A stretch of 48,133 nucleotides of DNA. It comes from Deltaproteobacteria bacterium. GTDB taxonomy: Bacteria; SAR324; XYD2-FULL-50-16. The notes below the pieces were generated by a model. That model saw nothing but the letters and a program-made list of their open reading frames with translations. It was not told where the DNA came from and ran no database searches. Below, piece after piece: positions 44,613 to 48,133 of the stretch (positions are counted from its first letter, which is position 1; the number at the start of each line of letters is the position of its first letter). Location of the stretch: positions 1-48,133 of the forward strand of contig JAOUME010000003.1 of NCBI GenBank assembly GCA_029881655.1, in the 5' to 3' direction. The position numbers were made by a program, and so were the translations under genes.

Positions 44613-46376
44613 ATGAATGTACTTATCGTTGGCGCGGGCGGCAGAGAGCATGCCCTAGCCTGGAAATGTTCAAAAAGCGCTAAAATCTCATCGCTTTTCG
44701 TGACCCCTGGAAATGGAGGAATTGCCAAAATCGCCGAATGTCTCGGAATAACCGACATTGATGAGATCGTCAAGCTGGCGGTAGACAACAAGATTGATTT
44801 GGCAATCATCGGACAGGAAGATTACTTGGTAAAAGGGCTTACCGAGTTGTTAGAAGTCAAGGGGATCTCGGTTTTTGGCCCGGGCAAATTCGCCTCCCAG
44901 CTTGAGGGAAGCAAGGTCTTCGCAAAAGAATTCATGCAAAAGCACAAAATCCCGTCCGCCAGCTACGAGGTCTTTAATGATCCAAAAAAAGCATCTAAAC
45001 ACCTAAAGGCACAACAACCACCCTATGTCATCAAAGCGAGCGGGCTGGCTGCCGGAAAAGGAGTGATCCTTGTCGATGATTTTGAGCAGGCCGAAAAAGC
45101 CATTGAGCGGATCATGGTGGATAAGTGCTTTGGAGAGGCGGGCGAACAGGTTGTCATCGAAGAATTTCTCAAGGGCGAGGAAGCTTCCTGGTTCGTCATC
45201 ACCGATGGCGAAAACTTCCACTGCGCTCCAAGCCTCCAGGATCATAAAAGACAGCTTGATCTCGATCAAGGCCCCAATACAGGCGGCATGGGGTGTTACT
45301 CCCCTGCGCCAGTCGTCACGAAGGCGGTTCAAGAGAAAATCATCAGAGAGATCGTTGAGCCTACCCTGGAAGGGATGAAAAAAGAGGGGCATCCCTATAA
45401 AGGCGTTTTATACATCGGCCTGATGATTGACCAGCAGCAACCAAAGGTCATCGAATACAACATCCGTTTCGGCGATCCAGAGTGTCAACCCTTAATGATG
45501 CTTTTAGACAGTGATCTATTGGAGATCGCTTTGGCCGCTACTGAAAAAAGACTCGATAAAATCTCAATTGACTGGAAGCAAAAATCAGCTGTTTCCCTGA
45601 TATTGGCATCGGGGGGGTATCCCCACTCCTACCAAAAAGGCCACGTCATTCAAGGATTAGAAGAGATCATTGAAGGCGATGATCTGATGGTTTTTCACGC
45701 TGGCACAAAAAAAGATCAAAACCGTTTTATGACTTCCGGCGGCAGAGTCCTTGGCGTAACCTGCCTTGCCGATGATCTCCCGAGTGCCATTGAAAAAGTC
45801 TATGAGACCGCTAAATACGTTCATTGGCCACAAATGCAATACCGCAGGGATATTGGCCTGAAAGGATTAAAAAGAATGAGCGGTAGCCGCTCTGAAAATC
45901 TGGTTACAATCCTTATGGGATCGGCCTCCGATGCTCCCGTTGCAAAAAAAGCCACCCAAATTTTAAAACAGTTCAATATCTCCTTTAAGGTTTATGTTTC
46001 TTCGGCTCACCGTACTCCGGAGAGAACCCGGAATCTTATTCAGCAGACAGAAAAAGATGGTTGCGAGGTTTATATCGCCATTGCCGGTATGGCGGCTCAC
46101 CTCCCAGGGGTTATCGCCTCTGAAACCCAAAAACCGGTCATCGGGATTCCCGTTGATAGCATGTTAGGAGGACAAGACGCCCTTTACGCGATCGTTCAAA
46201 TGCCACCTGGAATCCCGGTCGCGACCGTCGGAATCAACCGTGGTGAAAACGCGGCTCTCTTGGCGACTCAAATTCTGGCATTGAAATACCCGGCGATAGC
46301 GGCCTATCACCAAGAATACCGCCTGCAAATGGAACAAAAGGTCATCACTTCTCAGGCGGGGATAGTAGACGCATGA
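44613..46376 (+). CDS. purDE: PurD-PurE fusion: GAR synthetase plus AIR carboxylase/mutase
   Basis: Residues 1-421 are a full PurD (phosphoribosylamine-glycine ligase). They have G-A-G-G-R-E-H-A-L (7-15), the ATP-grasp loop K-A-S-G-L-A-A-G-K-G-V near 142, G-G-M-G-C-Y-S-P and the usual PurD ending R-R-D-I-G. After about seven residues a complete class I PurE follows (429-587), with M-G-S-A-S-D (435-440) and the catalytic S-A-H-R-T-P (464-469). PurD makes glycinamide ribonucleotide. PurE converts N5-carboxy-AIR to CAIR, three steps later in the pathway. No frameshift is needed. An internal ATG at codon 422 with AAAGGA nine bases before it could also give free PurE. The stop overlaps purN (ATGA). 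Confidence 0.95.
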   Translation: MNVLIVGAGGREHALAWKCSKSAKISSLFVTPGNGGIAKIAECLGITDIDEIVKLAVDNKIDLAIIGQEDYLVKGLTELLEVKGISVFGPGKFASQLEGSKVFAKEFMQKHKIPSASYEVFNDPKKASKHLKAQQPPYVIKASGLAAGKGVILVDDFEQAEKAIERIMVDKCFGEAGEQVVIEEFLKGEEASWFVITDGENFHCAPSLQDHKRQLDLDQGPNTGGMGCYSPAPVVTKAVQEKIIREIVEPTLEGMKKEGHPYKGVLYIGLMIDQQQPKVIEYNIRFGDPECQPLMMLLDSDLLEIALAATEKRLDKISIDWKQKSAVSLILASGGYPHSYQKGHVIQGLEEIIEGDDLMVFHAGTKKDQNRFMTSGGRVLGVTCLADDLPSAIEKVYETAKYVHWPQMQYRRDIGLKGLKRMSGSRSENLVTILMGSASDAPVAKKATQILKQFNISFKVYVSSAHRTPERTRNLIQQTEKDGCEVYIAIAGMAAHLPGVIASETQKPVIGIPVDSMLGGQDALYAIVQMPPGIPVATVGINRGENAALLATQILALKYPAIAAYHQEYRLQMEQKVITSQAGIVDA

Positions 46377-46996
46377 GCAATCTGGCCGTTTTTATCTCCG
46401 GAAACGGAAGCAACCTTCAGGCGATCATCAACCGCTGGAAAAAAGAAGACACCGCTTTCGACATCAAACTTGTCTTTTGTAACAAAGATGACGCTTACGG
46501 GATCAGAAGGGCAACCAAGGCGGGTATACCGGTAAAGATCCTGTTGCACAGCGATTTTGTTGATAGACAAGCCTACGACCAAAAAATACAGGAGATCATG
46601 CTGGCGCATCAAATCGACCTGATTGCGTTGGCCGGGTTCATGAGACTCTTAAGCTCTTGGTTTGTCGAGAAATGGGCCGGAAAAATCTTAAATATCCACC
46701 CCTCACTTCTACCCGCTTTTCCAGGATTAAACGCTCAAAAACAAGCCTTGGAACATGGTGTCAGGTTTAGTGGATGCAGTGTTTTTTTTGTTGACTCTGG
46801 AGTCGATACTGGGGCGATCATCAGCCAAGCGGTCGTCCCCATTTTCCTAAACGACAGCTTGGAGACACTTTCAAAGCGAATCCTGAAAAAAGAGCACCTG
46901 ATTTTCCCTACCGCGATCAACGATGTAGCTCTGGGAAAGGTTTCGCTATGTAACAGTAAGGCTGTATTTAAAATAAAGGCAACCCAAACAAATTAA
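46373..46996 (+). CDS. purN: Phosphoribosylglycinamide formyltransferase
   Basis: The 207-residue protein is a standard PurN, which transfers a formyl group from 10-formyltetrahydrofolate to GAR, the product of the PurD half of the upstream fusion. It has G-N-G-S-N-L-Q (10-16) and the catalytic triad N107, H109 (I-L-N-I-H-P-S-L-L-P) and D145 (S-G-V-D-T-G), one position off the E. coli numbering. Its start overlaps the fusion gene by four bases. Only one base separates its stop from the selenoprotein ATG. Confidence 0.96.
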   Translation: MSNLAVFISGNGSNLQAIINRWKKEDTAFDIKLVFCNKDDAYGIRRATKAGIPVKILLHSDFVDRQAYDQKIQEIMLAHQIDLIALAGFMRLLSSWFVEKWAGKILNIHPSLLPAFPGLNAQKQALEHGVRFSGCSVFFVDSGVDTGAIISQAVVPIFLNDSLETLSKRILKKEHLIFPTAINDVALGKVSLCNSKAVFKIKATQTN

Positions 46997-46997
46997 A

Positions 46998-47345
46998 ATG
47001 ACAAAAACATCCATCGCCTGGTTTTATTCCAGAAAAGGCTGAACTACCGCCAAAAAAGCTCAAGAGTTTCTTGAGAGAAAAAGGATTCAAATCGAAGATA
47101 CCCAGTATTCAGGCGAAGTTAAATTTAACGCCGAACAAGCTTGGGAACTGCTCAAAAAAGCCGAAACGATCTATTGCGCGAAAGGAAAAAGAATTATTTG
47201 TTTTGTGCCGGAGAAAGATCCCAAAGAGGATATCCTTAAAAAGATCATCGGCCCTAGTGGAAACCTTAGAGCCCCAACATTAAAAATCGGAGAGATATTT
47301 ATCGTTGGCTTTAATCTCGACCTTTATACGGAAAAAATCGCGTGA
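46998..47345 (+). CDS. ArsC-family selenoprotein (in-frame UGA read as Sec)
   Basis: From ATG 46998 the frame is open for 115 codons except for one TGA at 47040-47042 (codon 15). Read as selenocysteine (U), the protein is W-F-Y-S-R-K-G-U-T-T-A-K-K-A-Q at residues 8-22. This is the active-site region of ArsC/thioredoxin-fold proteins, where Cys-x-x-Cys is usual; here Sec takes the first Cys place and Ala18 the second. The end, G-P-S-G-N-L-R-A-P-T-L-K-I-G followed by V-G-F-N, matches the ArsC-family (seleno)protein group I know from deltaproteobacteria. A hairpin with a G in its loop lies 24 bases past the UGA. The gene follows purN by one base. The substrate is unknown, and arsenate reduction is not implied. 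A calling program that ends at TGA would miss it. Confidence 0.85.
47040..47075 (+). promoter_or_regulatory. Candidate bacterial SECIS element
   Basis: After the UGA (47040-47042) and 16 spacer bases comes the stem CTCAAG (47059-47064), loop AGTTT and stem CTTGAG (47070-47075), a perfect six-pair hairpin. The loop has G as its second base (47066), 24 bases past the UGA. This fits the usual bacterial SECIS layout of an apical loop with an early G, 16-37 bases downstream. The element lies within the coding sequence, as expected for SelB-dependent decoding. Confidence 0.7.

Positions 47346-47469: not shown

Positions 47470-48133
<664 letters not shown>

Follow-up and report, generated by a model that had tools for sequence, protein, structure and literature searches.

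The locus and its purine-gene surroundings

The window (the whole stretch of DNA that was analysed, 48,133 nucleotides) ends in a purine gene cluster that encloses one unexpected small frame. This frame starts with an ATG at 46998 and ends with a TGA at 47343-47345, and its sole interruption is a second TGA at codon 15 (Table 1). With standard gene calling the gene would stop after 14 residues. The initial annotation had described a full-length ArsC-like frame containing only this TGA, and exactly such a frame was found. The apparent stop is very probably read as selenocysteine (Sec), which would make a small redox protein.

Table 1. Features of the selenoprotein locus (positions in the window).
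Feature	Position	Strand	Remarks
purN, directly upstream of the selenoprotein gene	46373..46996	+	TIGR00639, 238 bits
NF041106 selenoprotein gene	46998..47345	+	115 residues with Sec15
TGA read as selenocysteine, codon 15	47040..47042	+	same column is TGA in every member above the cut-off
GCC, Ala18	47049..47051	+	resolving Cys at this place in most members
bSECIS-like hairpin	47059..47075	+	7 pairs, loop GUU 47066-47068, silent-site constraint
purA (5' part only, truncated at the window end), downstream	47494..48133	+	59% identical to the purA beside the L045 copy

The purN frame is separated from the selenoprotein gene by one base, and the two genes are likely located on one transcript. Further upstream, purD and purE are fused in a single frame of 587 residues (44613-46376), with TIGR00877 matching residues 1-419 and TIGR01162 residues 431-581. 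The position one base after purN, inside a purine cluster, had been pointed out before together with the question of a functional link. The position itself was confirmed. The order purN-selenoprotein gene-purA is also present at L045, in a genome (G003) of the same family as that of the window, while purN and purDE were not found at the other loci tested (L019-L128, with flanks of 1.5 to 5 kb at most). A link of the selenoprotein gene to purine metabolism is possible but weakly supported, because a single further genome showed this order at the loci tested.

Family assignment and fold

When the TGA is read as a residue, the protein matches the NCBIfam model NF041106 ("ArsC family (seleno)protein") with 111.7 bits (E 2.4e-32) over model positions 1-107 of 107. 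The window protein thus scores above the curated cut-off of 85 bits over the whole model and carries the in-frame TGA at the active site, as members of this family do. Its active-site motif is Sec-Thr-Thr-Ala (UTTA), which bears out the Sec-x-x-Ala arrangement proposed earlier and deviates from the published UxxC motif of NF041106. The latter was not treated as defining, since members with UxxS or UxxA still pass the cut-off of the model.

The structure was predicted with high confidence (pLDDT 94.6, pTM 0.87). The best PDB matches, both by profile and by fold, are Spx chains, with moderate Foldseek TM-scores (0.51-0.56), and a Pfam search of the window protein gave no match. The kinship in fold is therefore distant. 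An assignment as Spx was considered as well and rejected, the score being well below the TIGR01617 cut-off.

The in-frame TGA in relatives

Members of NF041106 above the cut-off were found in 75 genomes, each with exactly one in-frame TGA. The 52 SAR324 genomes contributed 25 of these and 80 genomes of a second phylum 19; another 28 came from a sample of 395 genomes in the phylum of Desulfuromusa, and the last three are further genomes. Desulfuromusa kysingii, Malonomonas rubra and Desulfocicer vacuolatum are among the carriers. A Cys form, without TGA at codon 15, was not found above the cut-off in the genomes searched. The alignment with Cys homologues that had been suggested as a check consequently has no counterpart within the subfamily: proteins with Cys at this place belong to the more distant Spx/ArsC family, and those weaker matches that lack a stop and were read proved to be ordinary proteins of the Spx/ArsC type. 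The protein of the relatives is conserved on both flanks of the TGA, in agreement with the earlier view that it is not a decay mutation. Because the TGA occurs in every member above the cut-off in the genomes searched, the family serves well as an indicator of selenium use.

A single-sequence search of the genome contigs retrieved no relative; a query with an alignment gave 371 matches, of which 80 were kept. In a tree the window gene falls outside any well-supported group and long branches meet, and no transfer history is therefore claimed. One copy from a Geopsychrobacter MAG (L113) has an in-frame stop inside the hairpin region, caused by decay or by an assembly error. Below the cut-off, in-frame TGAs also turned up in more remote ArsC/glutaredoxin-like frames (L048, L147, L177 and other matches), which probably represent other selenoprotein families.

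A bSECIS-like hairpin downstream of the TGA

The arms of the hairpin (47059-47065 and 47069-47075) are fully complementary, and its loop begins with a G, 23 nt past the TGA. The initial annotation had counted six pairs, in which case the loop reads AGUUU with the G in second place. The bSECIS model (PMC13188914) allows a loop of 3-9 nt and a stem of 4-16 bp, with a G in loop position 1-2 and a distance of 16-37 nt from the UGA. The hairpin (3-nt loop, 7 bp, 23 nt) lies within all of these limits, and the early loop G and the SECIS-typical distance noted before are consistent with this model.

The loop G is invariant in 90 distinct sequences and is kept in 112 of the 116 sequences of a wider set. 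Silent sites in the hairpin are constrained as well. Glu codon 9 is GAG in 86 of 86 cases, compared to 260 of 591 (44%) elsewhere in the same genes (Fisher 2e-28, uncorrected for relatedness), and for Leu codon 11 the codon CTT accounts for 77 of 89, compared to 94 of 571 (16%) elsewhere (Fisher 3e-39, likewise uncorrected for relatedness). The direction of this bias is the one predicted for an RNA element under selection. All four inner pairs form in 79 of the 90 sequences.

For the outer stem, pairing at the Ala wobble position averages 2.41 pairs over all sequences, against 2.00 after shuffling (maximum 2.16), and within the Asp class it occurs in 30 of 40 sequences, against 27.9 (maximum 31). 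This covariation may be a product of relatedness and is suggestive only as evidence for the hairpin. Folding energy proved too weak to serve as evidence, with a z of -0.5 over 60 nt and of -1.5 over 41 nt, and an Rfam search of the region gave only matches below the threshold. The selenoprotein gene is considered to stand beyond chance because of the E value of the protein match (2.4e-32), the TGA in all relatives above the cut-off and the silent-site constraint of the hairpin.

The selenocysteine machinery of the genome

The genome assembly that was searched comprises 3.0 Mb in 304 contigs and is 88.7% complete. It contains selA (450 bits), selC (a tRNA-Sec with anticodon TCA, 65 bits) and selD (348 bits). 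For selB, two fragments were found at contig ends, covering model positions 2-342 and 454-579; the N-terminal part runs off contig C21 and the C-terminal part runs onto contig C59, and the two pieces presumably belong to one gene. On its sequence, then, the organism can make selenocysteine. SelA was also found above its cut-off in 44 of 52 SAR324 genomes. The selD gene (L010 1471-2526, contig C287) likewise belongs to the selenoprotein genes, with a single in-frame TGA; its motif RTCGUAAK fits UxxK, which PMC13188914 gives for SelD.

The initial annotation had named two observations that would speak against its interpretation, absence of selABCD and relatives that all end at the TGA. All four genes were found and the conserved protein of the relatives continues past the TGA, so that the interpretation as a whole is supported.

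A decayed gene, in which translation simply ends at the TGA and never reaches the 3' part, would not be excluded by a single sequence, and the UxxA motif does deviate from that of the family. However, the downstream frame and its motifs are intact, and the in-frame TGA in 75 of 75 genomes, the constraint on the hairpin and the full Sec machinery all oppose it. Decay appears close to refuted by this conservation and is extremely improbable.

Active-site motif and proposed mechanism

A census of 116 distinct sequences yielded 110 with UxxC, four with UxxS and two with UxxA, the latter being the window protein and L138. Seven loci were left out of this census, among them L131 and L145, which were read separately and carry UxxS. 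Members of NF041106 with UxxS or UxxA are thus, besides the window protein, L131, L134, L135, L137, L138, L145 and L171. Together with the window protein they are spread over SAR324, the second phylum and that of Desulfuromusa. Apart from the window protein, those in the 116-sequence census contain no other Cys at all. The UxxA arrangement can be described more precisely as a minority state in a UxxC family, with one other case.

The Ala18 codon rests on one assembly, as the genome is assembled in 304 contigs, and this degree of fragmentation is what could be put forward for a sequencing or assembly error that masks a TGC (Cys) at codon 15 or codon 18. Yet the TGA at codon 15 is common to all members above the cut-off, a change from TGC to the Ala codon at position 18 takes two base changes, and UxxA was found once more (L138). 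Such an error has a very slight probability.

Taken together, the gene can be assigned with high confidence to a selenoprotein of the thioredoxin-fold ArsC/Spx superfamily, in which UGA 15 would encode Sec. The protein would most likely act as a one-selenol reductase. During translation, SelB and tRNA-Sec, acting at the hairpin that follows, would decode the UGA at codon 15 as Sec, and we infer from the sequence that Sec15 is incorporated into the protein. The corresponding position in ArsC/Spx proteins holds the catalytic Cys. Sec15 would then attack the oxidised substrate, generating a selenenyl-sulfide, which would subsequently be resolved by an outside thiol (glutaredoxin, thioredoxin or a small thiol). 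The CxxS-type arsenate reductases work in a similar way. This one-selenol step is somewhat favoured, because the other UxxS/UxxA members of the census have no further Cys.

Alternatively, the same selenoprotein may use an internal resolving thiol, Cys60 or Cys68, in place of the lost motif Cys. In an alignment of 44 sequences neither of these cysteines has a counterpart outside the window protein, the very one that has lost Cys18. Cys60, located in the strand E57-62 of the model, moreover precedes the conserved Lys62-Gly63 by two residues. The other UxxA/UxxS members of the census, which lack any further Cys, however, indicate that loss of the motif Cys needs no internal replacement, and internal resolution is rather unlikely.

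With resolution by an outside thiol as the preferred reading, NF041106 could comprise a recurrent one-selenol subtype (UxxA/UxxS), with Sec in the absence of the motif resolving Cys and mostly of any Cys in the protein; the chances for and against such a subtype are about even. This minority is a ready-made natural experiment on whether a selenol in an ArsC/Spx-type fold can work without a resolving thiol.

Comparison with known selenoproteins and related families

The family has already been catalogued: a 2026 review table lists it as the predicted selenoprotein "Arsenate reductase-like protein" with UxxC (PMC13188914), and among the papers searched no other was found that names NF041106. Arsenate-reductase-type selenoproteins with UxxS and UxxC were already listed in a 2008 ocean survey (PMC2398784). 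The UxxA motif is absent for this family in the table of PMC13188914.

The selenoprotein ArsC 1 (UxxS; PMC2398784, PMC13188914) resembles the window protein in having Sec in an ArsC-type protein and a motif without the second Cys. It differs in being assigned to pfam03960 and TIGR00014 (PMC2398784, PMC13188914), neither of which is among the matches of the window protein. Spx, ArsC and YffB (COG1393 superfamily) share the thioredoxin-type fold and an equally placed redox residue, but carry Cys where the window protein has Sec, at about 20% identity. The closest known system is NF041106 itself, the "Arsenate reductase-like protein" in Table 1 of PMC13188914, with which the window protein shares the whole-length match, the Sec position and the conserved R12, KG, GPSGNLRAP and GF. 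Compared to the usual form of this family, the window protein has UxxA instead of UxxC and two private cysteines, and its gene is located between purN and purA.
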